Source of the DNA: an uncultured Pseudomonadales bacterium
GTDB taxonomy: Bacteria; Pseudomonadota; Gammaproteobacteria; Pseudomonadales; UBA7434
Reading direction: 5' to 3'
Assembly (NCBI GenBank): GCA_905480475.1
Contig: CAJQQO010000111.1
Location: forward strand, 1-44,886
DNA: 44,886 nucleotides
The position numbers were made by a program, and so were the translations under genes. The notes beneath the pieces are model-generated. The model ran no database searches and was not told the DNA's origin. It worked only from the letters and a program-made list of their open reading frames with translations. This document shows positions 11,021 to 42,339 of this stretch, one piece after another. The stretch's first letter is position 1; every line of letters starts with the position of its first letter.

Positions 11021-12631
11021 CTAAGCGTATTCCACTAATAACGCACTATCGATTCTTTGCATATATTCGGCTTCTTGCTCCAAATCGGCATTGAGTAGAT
11101 GATTAAGCTCAAGCTCACTCGAATCAATTGTTAAGGTTAGGTTTGAGCCGCTGGCTTTTAGCGCTAGCTGCTTAAGTGGTAGTGGCAATCTTAAATTATT
11201 TAAAAGCACCGCTAATCGCAGCAAGCGAGTTAAACGCACTAATTGCTTGATGCCTACACCACGCATTAACGGTAAATTTTCTAATTTTAAACGCTTGCGA
11301 TGATTACCTACTAACACAGCTAATATCAGTTGCTGCTCCTGATTGTAGCCGGGCAAGTCGCTGTGATCTAACACATAGGCTGAGTGCCGATGCACATTAC
11401 TCGAACTTATCTGTAAACCAACCTCATGTAGCTGTGCGGCCTCGTGCAATAACTCTTTTAATATCGGCGATTTCAAATCCCAATCACTGGCTACTTGCGA
11501 GTAAAAATAATCGCAAGTCTCGGCAACTTGCTCGGCATAAGGTATATCAAGTAAGTAACGGGCCTGCAAGCTTTGGCGGGTGCGCTGACGAATATCGTCA
11601 TGGCGCATTTGTTGATCCATTTCATAAAGTATGCCTTCCCTTAATGCGGCATCACAGTAATGTAGCGATTTTATTTTTAAGCTATCCATAACCGCAAGCA
11701 AAATTGCCAGACCACTTGGCACTAAATGCTGTCGCGATTCACTAACCCCTAGCGTTTGCAATTCATCAAGATGCTCAATACTTAAAATCCAGTCGCGCAA
11801 GGTCGCTAAGTCATCACGATGCAAATGGCCTTCAGCTCGATCGTTATCGCACAGTTCAAAAACCGCCTTGGCTAATACTTTTGCTGTACCCGAGGTTGCA
11901 AATACCTGATCCCACTCGCCACGACCCAAGCTATTTGCGCAGTGTTCCATCTGCTGCATTGCGGCGGTATAGGCTTTACCAAAGGTTTTTTTATTTACAA
12001 TTTTTGGAAAGTATCGACGCGAGTAACTGACACATCCCATACGCCGACTCTCGCGCACATGCGGATCAAAACCCTGCCCCAAAGCTAACTCGGTACTGCC
12101 ACCACCAATATCGATAACCAACGCGCTACCGCTTAAGGTTTCGGTATGCGCAACACCTTGAAAAATTAGTCGCGCTTCTTCGCGGCCGGAAATCACCTCA
12201 ATCGGGAAGCCCACCGCTTGCTCGGCCAATGATAAAAAATAATCGCGATTTTGCGCAGCTCTAACAGTGTAGGTAGCTACAATACGGACTTGATCGGGCG
12301 AGCAATCTTTTAACAATTGCCCCATTTGCTCAAGGCATTGAACGCCACGCTCCATCGCCTTATTACTCAGGCTCAAGTTATCATCCAAACCGGCGGCTAA
12401 TTGCACTTGCTCTTTACGGCTTTGCACCGATTGCAAAGCCCCCATAACCGTGCGCGCAACAATTAAGTGGAAACTATTAGAACCAATATCGATGGCACCT
12501 AACAGCTGCGACTCTGGTAGCGAAGGTGTATCCGGTGTGGAGGTTTTACTGTCGCCTTTAGAAACGACAGAACTTTTGATGTCGTTATTATTTTTAGCTT
12601 TTTTAGCGGCGCTCTTTATACTTCTTGTCAT
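11021..12631 (-). CDS. ppx: Exopolyphosphatase (Ppx/GppA family)
   Basis: Ppx releases phosphate from the ends of inorganic polyphosphate; GppA paralogues hydrolyse pppGpp. The 536-residue protein has the ASKHA phosphate-1 motif GAIDIGSNSFHLIVAR near residue 45, the phosphate-2 motif VIDIGGGSTELALG near 172, and a C-terminal HD-like helical region (LHEVGLQISSSNVHRHSAYVL). The first 40 or so residues are Lys/Ser/Pro-rich and poorly conserved, so a later start is possible. It follows ppk by 41 bases on the same strand, the E. coli-type ppk-ppx arrangement, which favours Ppx over GppA. Confidence 0.93.
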   Translation of the reverse strand: MTRSIKSAAKKAKNNNDIKSSVVSKGDSKTSTPDTPSLPESQLLGAIDIGSNSFHLIVARTVMGALQSVQSRKEQVQLAAGLDDNLSLSNKAMERGVQCLEQMGQLLKDCSPDQVRIVATYTVRAAQNRDYFLSLAEQAVGFPIEVISGREEARLIFQGVAHTETLSGSALVIDIGGGSTELALGQGFDPHVRESRRMGCVSYSRRYFPKIVNKKTFGKAYTAAMQQMEHCANSLGRGEWDQVFATSGTAKVLAKAVFELCDNDRAEGHLHRDDLATLRDWILSIEHLDELQTLGVSESRQHLVPSGLAILLAVMDSLKIKSLHYCDAALREGILYEMDQQMRHDDIRQRTRQSLQARYLLDIPYAEQVAETCDYFYSQVASDWDLKSPILKELLHEAAQLHEVGLQISSSNVHRHSAYVLDHSDLPGYNQEQQLILAVLVGNHRKRLKLENLPLMRGVGIKQLVRLTRLLRLAVLLNNLRLPLPLKQLALKASGSNLTLTIDSSELELNHLLNADLEQEAEYMQRIDSALLVEYA

Positions 12632-28732: not shown

Positions 28733-29893
28733 CTAACGATTTACTACTTTCGCGGCAAAATCGCGAATCTCGCTAACAAACTCTGTCGGTCGCTCCATCG
28801 CGGCAAAGTGCCCGCCCTTTTCAAAGCTGCGCCACTGAACAATATCGGTATAGACATTTTCACACCACTTACGTGGATAACGCATTACCTCTTTCGGGTA
28901 TCTAGCGACACCCACAGGCACGGTTACTTGCTGCTCCAAAAACTTAAGCCGGGTATTTTGCGTCACTTCATAATAGAGCCGCGTTGAAGAGCAAATACTT
29001 TGGGTAAACCAATAGACCGAGATATTGGTTAACAACTCATCCTTATCAAGCACGGATTCGATATCACCATCGCAATCCATCCAAGTATAAAACTTCTCGG
29101 TAATCCACGCGCACAAACCCGCTGGTGAATCATTTAAGCCTACACCCAAAGTCTGCGGTTTAGTGCCCTGAATTTTTTGATAACCGGTTTCCATGGCATC
29201 GAACTTGGCCATATCTGCAAGATCTTCCAGCTCGGCTGGAGTCAAACCCTCGTTAGGATCTTCTGTTAAGGGGTAGCCAAAGGGCATATTGACATGAATA
29301 CCATACAAATGATCGGCATCCACAACGCCGATATTAGAAGTAATAATAGCTCCCCAATCGCCACCTTGCGCAATGTATTTTGCATAACCCAAACGTGACA
29401 TTAACTCGGCAAACATTTCTGCCATGGTCAAAGTATCAATTTGCTCGCGCTTAGTGGTTCCAGAAAAACCGTAACCGGGCAAGGATGGACAAACAATATG
29501 AAACGCATCTTCAGCTTTACCACCATGCGCTTCGGGATCAATTAATGGGTCAATGATTTTTAGAAACTCGACAATCGTACCGGGCCAGCCGTGACTAATG
29601 ATCATTGGTGTGGCGTTATCGTGTTTAGAGCGAGCGTGAATAAAATGGATATCGTGACCATCAATCTCAGTAATAAATTGACTATAACGATTTAGCTCAG
29701 CTTCGTGCTTGCTCCAATCGTATTCATTGGCCCAGTACTCGCAGAGCTGTTGAATATATTCGGTTTTCGCACCATAACGCCAATCGGTTCCGGGGATTTG
29801 ATCCGGCCAACGGGTTTGTTGCAAACGCTGCTTTAGATCCTGAATATCCTGATCTGGAATATTAATAGTAAATTCACGAATGGCCTTACTCAT
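28733..29893 (-). CDS. Epoxide hydrolase (EHN domain, alpha/beta-hydrolase)
   Basis: A 386-residue epoxide hydrolase of the microsomal type. The N-terminal EHN domain (REFTINIPDQDIQDLKQRL onward) precedes an alpha/beta-hydrolase core. The core has oxyanion motif HGWPG at 101-105, nucleophile D179 in QGGDWGAI, and catalytic His near 365 in EKGGHFAAMERP. It opens epoxides to diols; the substrate is unknown. ATG is preceded by GAGG. It is on the same strand as the amidohydrolase gene but 218 bases upstream of it, so a shared transcript is uncertain. The 28515-28732 gap shows an inverted repeat ATTGGCAA/TTGCCAAT (28664-28671, 28687-28694) of unknown role. Confidence 0.92.
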   Translation of the reverse strand: MSKAIREFTINIPDQDIQDLKQRLQQTRWPDQIPGTDWRYGAKTEYIQQLCEYWANEYDWSKHEAELNRYSQFITEIDGHDIHFIHARSKHDNATPMIISHGWPGTIVEFLKIIDPLIDPEAHGGKAEDAFHIVCPSLPGYGFSGTTKREQIDTLTMAEMFAELMSRLGYAKYIAQGGDWGAIITSNIGVVDADHLYGIHVNMPFGYPLTEDPNEGLTPAELEDLADMAKFDAMETGYQKIQGTKPQTLGVGLNDSPAGLCAWITEKFYTWMDCDGDIESVLDKDELLTNISVYWFTQSICSSTRLYYEVTQNTRLKFLEQQVTVPVGVARYPKEVMRYPRKWCENVYTDIVQWRSFEKGGHFAAMERPTEFVSEIRDFAAKVVNR

Positions 29894-30087: not shown

Positions 30088-31308
30088 TTATACTTCTGAA
30101 GGAACGCCATAATGCTGCTGATAGCGATCAAACCAATGTCGATCCGAAACATCCGACTGATAATTATGCGCACCAAACTTGCCCTGTGGCTTGGCGGCTA
30201 AATAATCCAGCATGCCCTGCTTAGCAATATCCGATAAGGGCATATCAAAGTGTTGATAGATTTTTTCGACACAAGCAACTGGCTCATCCATTAAATCGCA
30301 ATAGCGAGAATCACAAATACTTTTCTCTGACACAACCCCCTTAGCTACCTGATCTATAACTAACTCCAGACGCTGGGCAGTTGCCTCACCGACTAAAAAC
30401 TCATCAAAGGCAGCTGCGTTAAAGGCTTTATTACTGCGCATCTTAAATAGACAGGCCATTAAGTTAGTTGCCGACCCCATACATTTGATTGGATCGCGGT
30501 GAGTTTGAATAATACGGGCATCGGGATAAATTTTTAACAACACATCAAGCTTGCTTTGATGAGCAGGCGCTTTTAACAACCAACGTTTACGTGGATTCTT
30601 CCATTGCAGTACTTGCAGCATAATTTTATGCCATTCGTAAGCCTTGGTTAAATCGGCTTGTGCGTGCCAAGCGCCATAGTTGTCAGTCATATGCAGCGAG
30701 GCAATATGGTCGCTAATAAAACTACCGGCCATAATCAAACCGCACTCGGCTGGAATATCCCCGGCCATTTCATGTACCGAAGCAAACTCCGGCACCATTC
30801 GATTCCATTGGGTAAACAATTGATGTGCACGCTCGATACGTGGATCGCTAAGGTAAGTATCAGACTGTGGCGGCGGACAAGGTAATAAAGCCTCCCACAT
30901 TTTTGGCACACCGACATCGGGATCTTGCGCCAAGACCTCAAATAAAATAGAAGTGCCAGAGCGTGGTAAGCCGACAATAAACATAGGAGCAGCAACTTCT
31001 TGCTCAAGAATCTCGGGATGCTTATTGGTTAAATCGGTAATTTGTAAACGACTATCCAACCAAAGCAAAATATCATTACGCGCCATTAAGCGACCCATCA
31101 AGGTTAGCTCGGCAATCTGATCAAGATCGGCGCATAAGGTTTTTAATGGTGCTTGCCAATAATCCTCACCAAAATCATTCAAACCGGATTTTTTGATTGC
31201 AGCGTTTACCAGCGAATCATAATCCAACGCAACAACACTAGGTAAATCAAAAACTTCGCCTTCCTGATTCGCCTGAACAACCCAATCGGGATTTTTTGGT
31301 GTACTCAT
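30088..31308 (-). CDS. Sulfotransferase-family protein
   Basis: A 406-residue member of the sulfotransferase superfamily (PAPS-dependent). The 5'-phosphosulfate-binding loop is IVGLPRSGTSILFE with GLPRSGTS at 113-120. The 3'-phosphate-binding segment IIQTHRDPIKCMGS follows near 270-285. Such proteins transfer sulfate to hydroxyl or amine groups, but many bacterial members near catabolic genes have no proven activity. No PAPS-synthesis gene is near. It is transcribed away from the SDR gene across the symmetric palindrome at 31431-31470 and so is probably controlled with it. The 194-base gap to the epoxide hydrolase gene (29894-30087) holds no clear terminator, so the two may share a transcript. 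Confidence 0.85.
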   Translation of the reverse strand: MSTPKNPDWVVQANQEGEVFDLPSVVALDYDSLVNAAIKKSGLNDFGEDYWQAPLKTLCADLDQIAELTLMGRLMARNDILLWLDSRLQITDLTNKHPEILEQEVAAPMFIVGLPRSGTSILFEVLAQDPDVGVPKMWEALLPCPPPQSDTYLSDPRIERAHQLFTQWNRMVPEFASVHEMAGDIPAECGLIMAGSFISDHIASLHMTDNYGAWHAQADLTKAYEWHKIMLQVLQWKNPRKRWLLKAPAHQSKLDVLLKIYPDARIIQTHRDPIKCMGSATNLMACLFKMRSNKAFNAAAFDEFLVGEATAQRLELVIDQVAKGVVSEKSICDSRYCDLMDEPVACVEKIYQHFDMPLSDIAKQGMLDYLAAKPQGKFGAHNYQSDVSDRHWFDRYQQHYGVPSEV

Positions 31309-31430
31309 TTTATAACCTGTTATTTTGTAAGTCGCTAAATGTAAACGGTTCTTGAGTGAATTGCCAAGCCTATCTTAATCAATACCGTAGCCGAAGGTAT
31401 GCAAGCTAAGAATAAATTAATATTTAAGCC

Positions 31431-31470
31431 GCTTGCAGATTATAGGACGCGCGTCCTATAATCTGCAAGC
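31431..31470. promoter_or_regulatory. Perfect 40-bp palindrome: symmetric divergent promoter/operator
   Basis: The two 20-base arms, GCTTGCAGATTATAGGACGC and its exact inverse complement, meet between 31450 and 31451 with no spacer. Each strand carries the same promoter-like element: TTGCAG, an 18-base gap, then a consensus TATAAT (plus strand 31433-31438 and 31457-31462; minus strand 31463-31468 and 31439-31444). The core TATAGGACGC/GCGTCCTATA is a typical TetR-style operator and lies between the -35 and -10 elements of both promoters. Predicted starts would be near 31469 (plus, toward the SDR gene) and 31432 (minus, toward the sulfotransferase gene). The TetR gene at 32433 is the natural candidate to bind it. 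Confidence 0.8.
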
Positions 31471-31537
31471 TCAGCAGTTTCATAAAAATACGACAAGCAC
31501 GGCAACTACAAACGCGACTAAAATTGAGGCAATCATT

Positions 31538-32371
31538 ATGGATTTAGGACTTCAGAATAAAAATGTTATCGTCACCGGTGGCAGCGGCGGCATTGGCCGA
31601 GGCCTAGTACTGGAGTTTGCTCGCGAAGGAGCCAATGTGATTAGCGCCTCACGCGATACCAAACAAGGTGCCATCCTTCAGGAAATTGCGATTAAGGAAA
31701 ATTTGCCCGGCAAAGTGTTAGCGGTTGCAACCGACGTCACCAAGCGCGCATCGGTAGACGCGATGATTAAACGCTGCCACGAAGAATTCGGCACCGTTGA
31801 TGTGTTAGTCAATAACGCCGGTGGTGTTGCATCGCCATCACCTCTGGAGTCTTTATCCGATGAAGATAGAGATTGGGAAATCAAACTGAATATTGATGGC
31901 GTGGTTAATTGCTGTCAGGCCGTTTCCGCCGATATGTTAGAAAAACAATCCGGCAGCATCATTAATATTTCATCTAATTCATCCCTACTGGGTGAAGCCG
32001 CTGCCGGCATTGCTCACTATGGCGGCGTAAAAGGTTTTGTTAATTCATTTTCAAAAAGTCTGGCTTGGGAATGGGCCAAGTCCGGCATACGAGTAAATAA
32101 TATTTGCCCCGGCTGGATTGTTCCAGAAAAAGAAGAAGACGTAGGCGAAGGTAGTTTTTGGAATCGTTTTGGCTTTGATCAAATTGGCCGGCCCGATGAT
32201 ATGCAAAAAGCATTGGATGACGGCACGCTTTTTAATATGAGCGGCTTACCCATTCCTAAATTGGGTCGTCCTGAAGATATTGCTTACCTCAGCATGTTTT
32301 TAGCATCAGATGTTTCGGGTTATATCACCGGGCAATTAATTAGTGTCAGCGGCGGCGCTTATATGCCTTAA
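31538..32371 (+). CDS. Short-chain dehydrogenase/reductase (SDR)
   Basis: A 277-residue classical SDR with TGGSGGIG at 13-20 (NAD(P) loop), NNAG at 92-95, and the catalytic Ser (in NISSNSS), Y161 and K165 of the YxxxK motif. Ends with SGYITGQLISVSGGAY as in the FabG-like group. It oxidises or reduces a hydroxyl/carbonyl group; the substrate is unknown. ATG 31538 is chosen because GAGG sits eight bases upstream and the SDR fold begins there. A TTG in the same frame at 31433 lies inside the palindrome and would put 35 residues of low-complexity sequence in front. First gene of the rightward unit, followed by a weak AT-rich hairpin and then the TetR gene. Confidence 0.93.
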   Translation: MDLGLQNKNVIVTGGSGGIGRGLVLEFAREGANVISASRDTKQGAILQEIAIKENLPGKVLAVATDVTKRASVDAMIKRCHEEFGTVDVLVNNAGGVASPSPLESLSDEDRDWEIKLNIDGVVNCCQAVSADMLEKQSGSIINISSNSSLLGEAAAGIAHYGGVKGFVNSFSKSLAWEWAKSGIRVNNICPGWIVPEKEEDVGEGSFWNRFGFDQIGRPDDMQKALDDGTLFNMSGLPIPKLGRPEDIAYLSMFLASDVSGYITGQLISVSGGAYMP

Positions 32372-32376
32372 ATAAC

Positions 32377-32402
32377 GCTATTTTTTTATCTAAAAAAATA
32401 GC
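32377..32402. terminator. Weak AT-rich hairpin after the SDR gene
   Basis: GCTATTTTTTTA (32377-32388) and TAAAAAAATAGC (32391-32402) are exact inverse complements, almost without a loop. The stem is nearly all A-T, so termination would be partial; readthrough into the TetR gene (starts 32433) is likely. Confidence 0.4.
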
Positions 32403-32432
32403 TCTCAAGTAAACAGCTAGCAAGAAAAACCT

Positions 32433-33026
32433 ATGCCCAAAATTGTCGATCATCAACAACGTCGCGCAGAAATTACTGCTATTGCTGCGCAGCTAATTGC
32501 CGACAAAGGCATTGAAGCGGCAACCTTTAGAGAGATTGCCAAAGTCAGCGGCTACTCCAAAGGCATTATTGAGCATTACTTTGAAAACAAATCCGATCTA
32601 ATTTCCGCCTCATTGGACTGGGCTAACAAGCGTTACTACCAGCGTGCAGAAAATGCGGTTAAGGGTAAATCCGGCATTGAAGCTATCGAAGCGCGACTGT
32701 CATCAACATTACCGATGGATAAATCGATTCGCATGGAGTGGAAAATACGCTTGGTGTTTTGGACCATGGCTTGTATTGATCCCGCGCTCAATGCCGAGCA
32801 ATGCAATCGCGTAGAAAAAACCACTTCACATTTTATGGCTGATTTAAAATCAGCGGTAAAACGCGGAGAAATCGCCAAGGGAAATAAACTTGAGCATATT
32901 GCCCAGCGATTAATCTTTACCATTTCCGGGCTTAGCTGCGCAGCTGTGCACAACCCCAATGAATACGATAAGCGGCGACTGAATAAAGAAATACGCCATA
33001 TCATCAACGAAATAAAACAATCTTAA
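32433..33026 (+). CDS. TetR-family transcriptional regulator
   Basis: A 197-residue regulator. The N-terminal DNA-binding domain is clear: RRAEITAIAAQLIADKGIEAATFREIAKVSGYSK with the helix-turn-helix near 26-46, then GIIEHYFENKSDLI. The C-terminal region is a helical ligand and dimer domain of the kind found in BetI-like members. It probably controls its own cluster through the 40-bp palindrome about 960 bases upstream, with a pathway intermediate (perhaps an acyl-CoA or alcohol) as inducer. The DUF1214-like gene starts 23 bases downstream, so the two are co-transcribed. Confidence 0.92.
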   Translation: MPKIVDHQQRRAEITAIAAQLIADKGIEAATFREIAKVSGYSKGIIEHYFENKSDLISASLDWANKRYYQRAENAVKGKSGIEAIEARLSSTLPMDKSIRMEWKIRLVFWTMACIDPALNAEQCNRVEKTTSHFMADLKSAVKRGEIAKGNKLEHIAQRLIFTISGLSCAAVHNPNEYDKRRLNKEIRHIINEIKQS

Positions 33027-33049
33027 AAAGTTGAAAAAGGATTAATTCC

Positions 33050-34264
33050 ATGAGCAATCCCGATAAGCTTGAAAATGAAAACGCAGTTCTTAAAAATGCC
33101 TGGCATGATTTTTGTGATGATTTAAAAGCCAGCGGCGATTTAATCTTTAGAGATGGCATCCCTGAAAATGCGACCACTCGCGCAGCAGGTATGCGCTTAT
33201 TGGCGAGAAATATTTCTTTAGCTATGCAGTTTCAAATGGAAAATAATAATCCCGACTTCCCCGAATTGCTGCACTATTTTGATCCCTTAAGAAAACAAGG
33301 TGGTGACAATACCGATGCGCATTACAGCGGCGCACCGATCAATGGCCAACACAGTTATCGAATTTATGGCAATCGCGGCACTGCCAAATATTTTGCGATA
33401 ACCATTTTAGAAGATGGCAATACGCCTTGGGGTGGTGGCGTTGTTAACACTCGCTTAGCCAAAGATTTACATTTTGAAGCCGACGGTAGTTTTGAATTAT
33501 TGGTCGGCCCCGAAAAACCTGCCGATCTCGATGAGTCAAAAAGCAATTGGATGCAAACATCGGCTGACACTTATCGCATTACCTTTAGACAATTCTTTGC
33601 CGACTGGTTAGGCGAAAAACCGATGCAAGCCAATATTGACTGCCTAACTAATCAAAACCCTGCACCACTACTTACGCCTAACGATCTTGCCGAAGGATTA
33701 AAAAAATCCAGCCACTGGGTGAATTGGTCCAGCACTTATTGGGCCGATATGATTGATAAGTGGAAGGTGCAGCCTAATACTTTTTTATCGTACGGCGAGT
33801 TAGAAAAAAATAAAATTGATTTTACACCCGGTGGCGCGCCGATCATTGCCTACTGGCAAGTTCCCAAGGATGAAGTGCTATTACTTAGGGTTACGCCGCC
33901 CAATGCCAGTTATTGGGCGGTTGAATTTGGCAATTACTGGTGGGAAACCATGGACTATCGCAATCGTTTTAGCAGCACCAATTGCCACCATGCTGAGCTA
34001 GAAGATAATGGCGAGCTGATAGTTATTATCAGCCATCAAGACCTCGGCGCGAAAAACTGGCTCGACCCATCCGGCCATGAAGAAGGTTATATCACCTACC
34101 GCTGGATTGACTGCGATCATTATCCTAAACCCGTGCCAGAGCAAATGTCTTTGGATGATTTGCACAAAAACCATGCCGGACTAATTAGTCACGTTGACCA
34201 GCAACAGCGACAAGCCCAGCTAAATGAACGCCGCGCTGGTATTACCCAACGCTTTGGATCTTAG
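33050..34264 (+). CDS. DUF1214-like protein of unknown function
   Basis: A 404-residue soluble protein with no signal peptide or membrane segment. Its middle and C-terminal part (for example YRIYGNRGTAKYFAITI, LRVTPPNASYWAVEFGNYWW, HQDLGAKNWLDPSGHEEGY and YRWIDCDHYP) resemble DUF1214-type domains, which are often found in steroid, terpene or aromatic catabolic clusters but lack an assigned reaction. It is rich in Trp and Asn/Asp. ATG is preceded by AAGGA at good spacing. It follows the TetR gene by 23 bases and precedes the enoyl-CoA hydratase gene by 126 bases. I cannot name its activity. Confidence 0.7.
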   Translation: MSNPDKLENENAVLKNAWHDFCDDLKASGDLIFRDGIPENATTRAAGMRLLARNISLAMQFQMENNNPDFPELLHYFDPLRKQGGDNTDAHYSGAPINGQHSYRIYGNRGTAKYFAITILEDGNTPWGGGVVNTRLAKDLHFEADGSFELLVGPEKPADLDESKSNWMQTSADTYRITFRQFFADWLGEKPMQANIDCLTNQNPAPLLTPNDLAEGLKKSSHWVNWSSTYWADMIDKWKVQPNTFLSYGELEKNKIDFTPGGAPIIAYWQVPKDEVLLLRVTPPNASYWAVEFGNYWWETMDYRNRFSSTNCHHAELEDNGELIVIISHQDLGAKNWLDPSGHEEGYITYRWIDCDHYPKPVPEQMSLDDLHKNHAGLISHVDQQQRQAQLNERRAGITQRFGS

Positions 34265-34390: not shown

Positions 34391-35200
34391 ATGTCATTCG
34401 TTAAAATCAGTTACCCAAAGACCGGTATTGCATTGGTTACACTCAATCGTCCGGATCGTATGAATGCGATGGCCTTTGATGTAATGCAGCCGCTAAAAGA
34501 AGAGCTGGAAGCAATCAGCTTTAATAGCGAGATACGGGTTGTGATACTCACCGGTGAAGGTTCGACATTTTGCGCCGGAGCCGATTTGCAAGACCCCGGT
34601 TATTTATCCATTTTTGATGGCCACACGATGCCACGAATCGCCTTGCGGGCGATGCGTGTACTCGACGATGTTGTCACTACGATTCGTGAAATGACCCAAC
34701 CGGTTATCGCAGCAATTAATGGCCCGGCCGTCGGTGGTGGTTTTTGCCTGGCAATGGCAGCCGATTTACGTATTGCAGCGGACAGCGCTTTTTTTCGCGC
34801 CGCCGGCATTAACAATGGCTTAACCAGTGCAGAACTCGGTTTAAGTTATTTATTGCCACGCGCAATTGGTATTAGCCGCGCCAACGATATTATGCTGACG
34901 GGCCGTGATGTCGGTGCAGAAGAAGCTGAGCGATACGGCATTGTCTCGCGAGTCGTCAGTAATGAGGCCTTAATTGATGAGTGCACAGTCATGGCCGACA
35001 ATATTTTGCGCCATAGCCATTTAGGTGTTGAACAAACTAAGGTGATGCTAAATGCTGGTGTCGACGCCGGATCATTACACAGTCATATGCATCATGAAGG
35101 CATCACCCAACTATTTGTTAGAATGACAACCAAGAACTTTGAAGAAGCAATTAAAGCGCGCAAACAAGGACGAGCCCCAGATTTTACCGACGAAGTTTAG
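34391..35200 (+). CDS. Enoyl-CoA hydratase/isomerase family protein
   Basis: A 269-residue crotonase-fold enzyme. The oxyanion-hole segments are GSTFCAGADLQ (about 59-69) and GPAVGGGFCLAMAADLRIA (about 111-129). The catalytic Glu region ELGLSYLLPRAIG is at about 147-160. It hydrates or isomerises enoyl-CoA thioesters and so fits downstream of the acyl-CoA synthetase of this cluster. No acyl-CoA dehydrogenase or thiolase is in the window, so any full beta-oxidation would rely on genes elsewhere. It is the last gene of the rightward group and converges on the HDOD gene. Confidence 0.92.
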   Translation: MSFVKISYPKTGIALVTLNRPDRMNAMAFDVMQPLKEELEAISFNSEIRVVILTGEGSTFCAGADLQDPGYLSIFDGHTMPRIALRAMRVLDDVVTTIREMTQPVIAAINGPAVGGGFCLAMAADLRIAADSAFFRAAGINNGLTSAELGLSYLLPRAIGISRANDIMLTGRDVGAEEAERYGIVSRVVSNEALIDECTVMADNILRHSHLGVEQTKVMLNAGVDAGSLHSHMHHEGITQLFVRMTTKNFEEAIKARKQGRAPDFTDEV

Positions 35201-40959: not shown

Positions 40960-42252
40960 ATGTCAGCAAACAGTCATTCAGAAAAACTTTTTCAACGCGC
41001 CCAGCAATCTATTCCCGGCGGCGTTAACTCTCCGGTACGTGCGTTTAAAGCCGTAGGTGGAACACCGCTATTTATTCAATCGGCCAAGGGCCCTTATGTC
41101 GTTGATTGTGACGGCAAACAATATATTGATTACGTACAATCTTGGGGGCCAATGGTATTGGGTCATGCTCATCCGCAAGTGATTGCTGCGGTACAAGAAA
41201 AAATGGCCGACGGCCTAAGTTTTGGCGCACCCACTGAAATAGAAACCGAATTGGCCGAAAAAATAAAATCGATTTTGCCGTCAATGGATATGTTACGCAT
41301 GGTTAGCTCGGGCACAGAAGCCACGATGAGTGCCATACGTTTAGCGCGCGGATTTACTGGCCGCGATAAAATCGTTAAATTTGAAGGCTGCTATCACGGT
41401 CACTCTGATTCCTTATTAGTGAAAGCCGGTTCCGGCGCATTAACCTTTGGCGTACCCAGCTCGCCCGGCGTACCTGCATCCTTGGTTAAACACACTTTGA
41501 CATTAACCTATAACGATATCGAACAAGTTAAACAAGTTTTTGCCGAACAAGGCGATAGCATTGCCTGCATTATTGTCGAGCCAGTTGCAGGCAATATGAA
41601 TTGCGTGCCGCCTATTGATGGTTTTTTAGAAAGCTTGCGTGAAGTTTGCGATGCCTCAGGTGCAGTACTTATTTTTGATGAAGTGATGACCGGTTTTAGA
41701 GTGGGCTTAACAGGCGCGCAAGGCCATTACGCTATTACGCCCGACCTGACCACTTTAGGCAAAGTGATTGGCGGCGGTATGCCAGTAGGTGCATTTGGCG
41801 GACGGCGCGACATTATGGAACAATTAGCACCCATCGGGCCTGTCTATCAAGCGGGCACCTTGTCGGGCAATCCAGTTGCTATGGCGGCGGGATTAACCAC
41901 GCTTAATCTCGTTTGCGAACAAGGCTTTTATCCACCGATATTTGCGGCGACCGAACAACTTACCAATGGACTACAAGCGATTGCCAATAATCTGGGGATG
42001 CCCTTTACCACTAATCATGTTGGCAGTATGTTCGGAGTATTTTTTACTGAAGCAGAAACCGTTAGCCGTTACGAGCAAGTAATGAGTGGCAATACCGACC
42101 GCTTTAATCAATTTTTTCATGGCATGCTAGATCATGGCGTTTATTTGGCACCGGCTAGTTATGAAGCGGGATTTGTTTCTGCGGCACATACTAGCGATAT
42201 TATTGATCAGACCTTAACAGCAGCCGAGCAAGTTATGGCGCAGTTAAGCTAG
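40960..42252 (+). CDS. hemL: Glutamate-1-semialdehyde 2,1-aminomutase
   Basis: HemL converts glutamate-1-semialdehyde to 5-aminolevulinate, the C5 route to heme. The 430-residue product has the signature N-terminus [20 protein letters not shown], the [14 protein letters not shown] cofactor loop, [20 protein letters not shown] with the PLP Asp, and the Schiff-base lysine K268 in [18 protein letters not shown]. Length matches the family closely. ATG is preceded by GGAAG. Downstream lies a 17-bp inverted repeat with a 40-base spacer. The gap 42253-42517 otherwise shows nothing recognisable. Confidence 0.98.
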
Positions 42253-42265
42253 CTACTGCAATTGA

Positions 42266-42339
42266 AGATCAATATATTGTTGTTATGCTGTCGCTGTGTT
42301 GTCGCTCTATTTTCAATCCAGCCAACAATATATTGATCT
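42266..42339. repeat. 17-bp perfect inverted repeat with 40-base spacer downstream of hemL
   Basis: AGATCAATATATTGTTG (42266-42282) and its exact inverse complement (42323-42339) flank a 40-base spacer that contains a TGTCGCT direct repeat. The arms are AT-rich and there is no U-run after the second arm, so a standard terminator is unlikely. It could be a stabilising 3' hairpin for hemL mRNA, a regulatory site, or a remnant of a small mobile element. Confidence 0.6.

Follow-up and report, generated by a model that had tools for sequence, protein, structure and literature searches.

The window (the whole stretch of 44,886 nucleotides that was analysed) carries a 40-bp palindrome at 31431..31470, in the gap between two divergently oriented sets of genes. 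Leftward, on the minus strand, family searches placed the first gene in the sulfotransferases (Sulfotransfer_3; 30088..31308); it is followed by an epoxide hydrolase-like gene (28733..29893), possibly cotranscribed with it, and then by an amidohydrolase and an acyl-CoA ligase. Rightward, on the plus strand, the first gene encodes an SDR-family oxidoreductase (31538..32371; family search) starting at the ATG at 31538; a TTG-started ORF beginning inside the palindrome was rejected as a mechanical call. Next stand a TetR-family regulator (32433..33026), which is the predicted binder of the palindrome, a DUF1214 protein (33050..34264), identified by family search and found in relatives as a recurring neighbour of this TetR, and an enoyl-CoA hydratase/isomerase (34391..35200; family search) possibly belonging to the same rightward operon. 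Between the SDR stop and the TetR start, an AT-rich hairpin of 12 pairs with one mismatch (32377-32402) could serve as a stabiliser or attenuator of the SDR-TetR transcript. Elsewhere in the window, a perfect inverted repeat with arms of 17 bp, 40 nt apart (42266-42339), was located directly after an aminotransferase-like gene (named by eye) that ends at 42252.

Direct comparison showed that 31431-31470 is identical to its own reverse complement at 40/40 bases, as a sequence-only reading of this DNA had stated. From base composition, perfect 20-pair palindromes are expected 4.9e-8 times per window; the longest palindrome in 100 first-order Markov sequences of the same length measured 24 bp and was seen once, and the runner-up within the window itself has 22 bp. 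A scan of 118 other loci (830,735 bases, overlaps counted) detected no zero-loop perfect palindrome of at least 24 bp, a criterion under which the one-mismatch palindrome of the related genome G008 does not register. Inside the palindrome we annotated a predicted TetR operator core, TTATAGGACNNNNGTCCTATAA (31440..31461), which has similar counterparts close to the TetR relatives of G008, G041, G179 and G027, and within this an inner core, TAGGACNNNNGTCCTA (31443-31458). A 20-bp core is single-copy in the assembly of the window (3,537,540 bases, 88% complete; at most three mismatches; reversed-pattern control = 0), on which ground a mobile or repeated element was rejected. A search of the same genome revealed no wider regulon: at three mismatches it gave one other site and one reversed-control site, and the inner core matched seven times within the window at three mismatches against 8.4 expected.

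The motif TTGCAG-N18-TATAAT occurs once per strand within the palindrome, and its positions bear out the earlier statement that it is the same on both. The candidate rightward promoter consists of a -35 box at 31433..31438 and a -10 box at 31457..31462, with a predicted start at about 31469; its leftward counterpart, on the minus strand, has the -35 at 31463..31468, the -10 at 31439..31444 and a predicted start at about 31432. Both -10 boxes overlap the operator core. Judged as sigma-70 promoters (hexamers at 16-18 bp), each strand presents a 6/6 match at -10 and a spacer of 18, with a weak -35 of 3/6 against TTGACA, and neither was listed by a promoter scan requiring at least 4/6 per hexamer. 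The idea of two identical promoters stands in part. The hexamers and the 18-bp spacing are present and recur in G008, where the palindrome carries TTGCTT-N18-TATAAT on both strands, and this conservation argues for the predicted promoters being the palindrome's own. On the other side stand the weakness of the -35 boxes and the presence in the gap of rival pairs that do equally well or better: a leftward one, TTGGCA-N18-TACATT (31367-31338), equals the palindrome pair at 9/12 consensus positions, and a minus-strand pair of G008, located outside the palindrome, reaches 10/12.

The regulator contains the TetR_N helix-turn-helix (43.3 bits, above the Pfam gathering score of 24) and the BetI-type C-terminal domain TetR_C_6. 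Its top NCBIfam model is TIGR03384 (BetI), covering residues 2-190 with 58.5 bits, and since the cut-off of that model is 201.3, identity with BetI was rejected. A search of solved structures retrieved no close relative (best = 2nx4, E-value = 6e-21). The palindromic, operator-like site is near the regulator's own gene; in the window, the core begins 990 bp upstream of it.

We compared 12 genomes of one genus, with assemblies 70-99% complete. This TetR was detected at E <= 1e-80 only in the genome of the window (G000) and in G008, while G005, G007 and G009 gave matches of merely 29-34%; the core (at most one mismatch) is present in the same two genomes, an agreement in 12/12 genomes, some of them incomplete. 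The sulfotransferase occurs at 80% or above in six genus genomes (part of each genome's candidates scored) and the SDR at 85% or above in five. Four genomes (G001, G002, G004, G010) have neither TetR nor palindrome but retain the divergent sulfotransferase/SDR pair; their DUF1214 gene comes immediately after the SDR, and their gap is different and shorter. G008 retains both, TetR standing directly after the palindrome, and its SDR was not found at E <= 1e-60 in an assembly 78% complete. From this pattern of presence and absence, the palindrome belongs with the TetR and not with the gene pair. Loss of the palindrome in relatives that keep the genes, proposed beforehand as grounds against an operator, does occur in the four genomes, but these same four are without TetR too. 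One block, containing GGTCACGTGCCGTGCAG and a TATAAT box, is conserved in the sulfotransferase-SDR gap of these TetR-less relatives (L074, L075, L076, L078), where the gene pair may be served by another promoter and another regulator.

In four other genomes, TetR relatives that are 72, 49, 47 and 40% identical have TAGGACNNNNGTCCTA (at most one mismatch) at a distance of 0.1-6 kb. Counted upstream from the TetR start, the site begins at 125 bp in G008 and at 113 bp in G027; in G179 it begins at 1251 bp, between a sulfotransferase and DUF1214-TetR; and the TetR contig of G041 has three such sites 4.4-6.0 kb upstream of the gene, besides a two-mismatch site about 200 bp before it (L116 5840). 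Altogether the core occurs five times in G041 (L116 5840, 10039, 10286 and 11629; L119 535). Apart from the site at 11629, these precede the TetR, DUF1214 and an old-yellow-enzyme-like gene (by eye), and a site exact in the 22-bp core precedes a TonB-dependent-receptor-like gene (by eye) on another contig, so that a small regulon is predicted from the five. At the level of the order, TATAGGACGNNCGTCCTATA (at most one mismatch) was found in 4/293 genomes (G000, G008, G041, G275), the reversed control giving 0. G000 and G008 carry this TetR and G041 a 49% relative. In G275 (64% complete) the one-mismatch core (L120 4433) stands before a membrane-fusion-protein-like gene (by eye), and no TetR relative was found at E <= 1e-25 (part of candidates scored), nor at E <= 1e-35 with the TetR of G179.

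Scanning 68 TetR loci, distant relatives included, yielded seven distinct sites with at most one mismatch against one for the reversed pattern; L024, which by sequence repeats L003 (the G008 contig), was not counted twice, and among 46 named loci it is the only one with a core site at this threshold. With up to two mismatches the same 68 loci gave 11 sites against 17 in the control (L024 counted in both), and with three mismatches 10 genomes chosen for TetR or site gave 14 forward against 15 reversed-control matches, which is not above background. Counts at two to three mismatches being at background level, only the set with at most one mismatch, together with its placement, stands out. Eleven TetR homologues were collected at E <= 1e-35 from 390 genomes (part of each genome's candidates scored); five have sites, and for the other six none was present at up to two mismatches in the surrounding DNA that was retrieved. 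No new TetR carriers appeared at E <= 1e-35 in the family of G179 (10 genomes), in that of G041 (2 genomes) or in the 390-genome draw from the order (part of each genome's candidates scored in this draw).

The comparison, through the cores near TetR relatives and the co-occurrence in the genus, supports the view that the 32433-33026 protein has its TetR-type operator in the palindrome. The whole 40-mer, as had also been suggested, is too long for that operator, since only about 22 bp of it are found again in other genera. At the level of the protein, Tyr41, at the start of the recognition helix, is present in 5/5 site-bearing TetRs and in 0/11 other aligned relatives, where the position is occupied by F, V, A, M or C (alignment of 16 rows picked from the 68 loci); as the TetR tree is mostly without resolution, this link between Tyr41 and the site may reflect descent. 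Two further loci deserve mention. In Pseudomaricurvus alkylphenolicus an SDR (72%) and a TetR relative (37%) diverge around a different near-palindrome, ATTTTTATATGACAATGTCATATTAAAAT (L026 5883-5911), which is the layout of the window with other operator letters. In G039 a near-perfect palindrome, AATTAAAAGCGCAATCACGATTGCGCTTTTAATT (L017 1431-1464), lies just before a TetR relative and is a candidate operator or terminator.

We consider it likely (probability roughly 0.78), judging from sequence comparison, that the palindrome is the operator of the 32433-33026 TetR, overlying a predicted pair of divergent promoters, both of which would be silenced on TetR binding. One TetR dimer, or two, would bind the central GGAC/GTCC (GGAC-N4-GTCC), and bound TetR would block RNA polymerase both ways, since each TATAAT box reaches into the edge of the core. 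Transcription towards the sulfotransferase and towards SDR-TetR-DUF1214 would then be shut off together and, with its gene on the rightward side, TetR would repress itself. On the free site two polymerases would probably be unable to load simultaneously, so that the two similar promoters would be mutually exclusive. TetR would be released by a ligand, which may be an acyl-CoA or else an alcohol or ketone that the cluster handles. The outer arms, with the -35 boxes, lie outside the predicted operator as seen in other genera, and their symmetry may owe to selection that keeps the promoters matched, or to copying of one arm onto the other with a hairpin as template.

The arms themselves were studied by counting pairs outward from the centre, ungapped, with pairs 1-12 as the core and 13-20 as the outer part. 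Core pairing amounts to 12 in G000, 11 in G008 and 7-10 in eight other sites, whereas the outer part is paired at 8/8 positions in both G000 and G008 and at only 1-4 of 8 in the eight others. The palindromes of G000 and G008 are identical at 29/40 positions. Their left arms differ at pairs 1, 13, 14, 19 and 20, and all 5/5 differences are mirrored complementarily on the right arm (about 1.6e-6 under independent change, a rough estimate), G008 having one additional, unmirrored difference at pair 6, where it is asymmetric. Four of the eight outer positions are among the mirrored differences, while the TTGC of the -35 and the TATAAT of the -10 are unchanged. The sulfotransferase-side leaders of the two genomes are 65% identical, within the shuffled range (mean 61%, maximum 71%), and the right leaders 62%. 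Since the arms differ and are nevertheless mirrored, they have diverged, but together.

This co-divergence bears on a reading to which we would give somewhat less than even odds, namely that only the core is the TetR operator, the outer arms having become symmetric by hairpin-mediated template switching, with the identical -35 boxes a by-product and promoters that need not matter equally. The fully paired outer part in both genus members, set against its poor pairing in the eight other core sites, and the 5/5 mirrored differences agree with it, and template switching has been described, in the available text of a study on RNA-gene hairpins, as creating and maintaining perfect stems (PMC8794818). 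Selection for symmetry, however, predicts the same pattern, two sequences leave the direction of change, or a single event, invisible, and the retention of TTGC and TATAAT in both species is what promoter selection predicts. A broader form of the idea is that the divergent promoters evolve in concert, the symmetry of the operator letting one arm template the other in replication, so that -35 changes are copied and equal strength is locked; we regard this as speculative and rather doubtful, although if true a palindromic operator would be a self-copying, self-balancing promoter pair.

The symmetry could also come from protein contacts, the entire 40 bp being a site for two TetR dimers side by side whose contacts along 20 pairs select for pairing. 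Some TetR-family proteins bind in this way, QacR being an example that binds as two dimers, and the symmetry does extend to pair 20 in G000 and to pair 21 in G008, with the one mismatch at pair 6. The sites of other genera, however, are symmetric mainly in the core, and we judge this arrangement unlikely. Recognition of the palindrome by another protein appears very improbable: TetR binding is itself a prediction from sequence, and G275 has a close site but no TetR relative detected in its genome, but core and TetR agree throughout the 12 genus genomes (some incomplete) and three additional genera have sites near their TetR relatives. That the palindrome is an RNA hairpin, a terminator or a mobile repeat is scarcely credible, for although the 20-bp perfect stem could fold, it would hardly be transcribed from these promoters given predicted starts at its ends, it lacks the T run of an intrinsic terminator (G+C-rich stem plus T run) and is absent from the terminator list, it is single-copy, and Rfam over 31200-33100 returned no family at gathering score, one sub-threshold match (E-value = 0.55) overlapping the palindrome.

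Regarding known systems, the E. coli operator bioO, bound by BirA between bioA and bioBFCD, is an inverted repeat of about 40 bp over two divergent overlapping promoters, although that repeat is imperfect and its repressor unrelated; many operators are only roughly symmetric. Among the matches listed in our literature search, titles and abstracts named no operator of the present kind, which is not a claim of absence from print. In E. coli PacrA/acrR, according to the available text, the TetR-family auto-repressor AcrR keeps down the RNAs made in both divergent directions, and polymerases of opposite orientation are able to exclude one another (PMC12825309). The window resembles this system in a TetR-family repressor at divergent promoters, predicted here from sequence. 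In the bidirectional promoters of Warman et al., as the same text describes them, divergent starts surround one shared -10, usually 18, 10 or 23 bp apart (PMC12825309). Unlike PacrA/acrR, which has such a shared -10, the window has two separate -10 boxes, each directly adjoined by the -35 of the other promoter; its predicted starts are separated by 37 bp, and the symmetry of the arrangement is perfect throughout. MbdR of Azoarcus, a TetR-family repressor of a catabolic cluster, has palindromic operators that lie on promoter elements, and its inducer is a CoA thioester, but its operator is ATACN10GTAT at several promoters, and the available part of that report mentions no 40-bp perfect palindrome (PMC4424350). 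A TetR at a bidirectional promoter is already known from AcrR; the site of the window sets itself apart by its perfect symmetry, its geometry and the mirrored divergence of its arms.

In this locus one perfect palindrome unites a predicted regulator site with both candidate promoters, and its outer arms differ between two species yet are mirrored in each. The palindrome is a testable case of whether the balance of divergent promoters owes to selection or to a mutation process, and TAGGACNNNNGTCCTA provides a predicted operator for a group of TetR regulators in apparently catabolic clusters.
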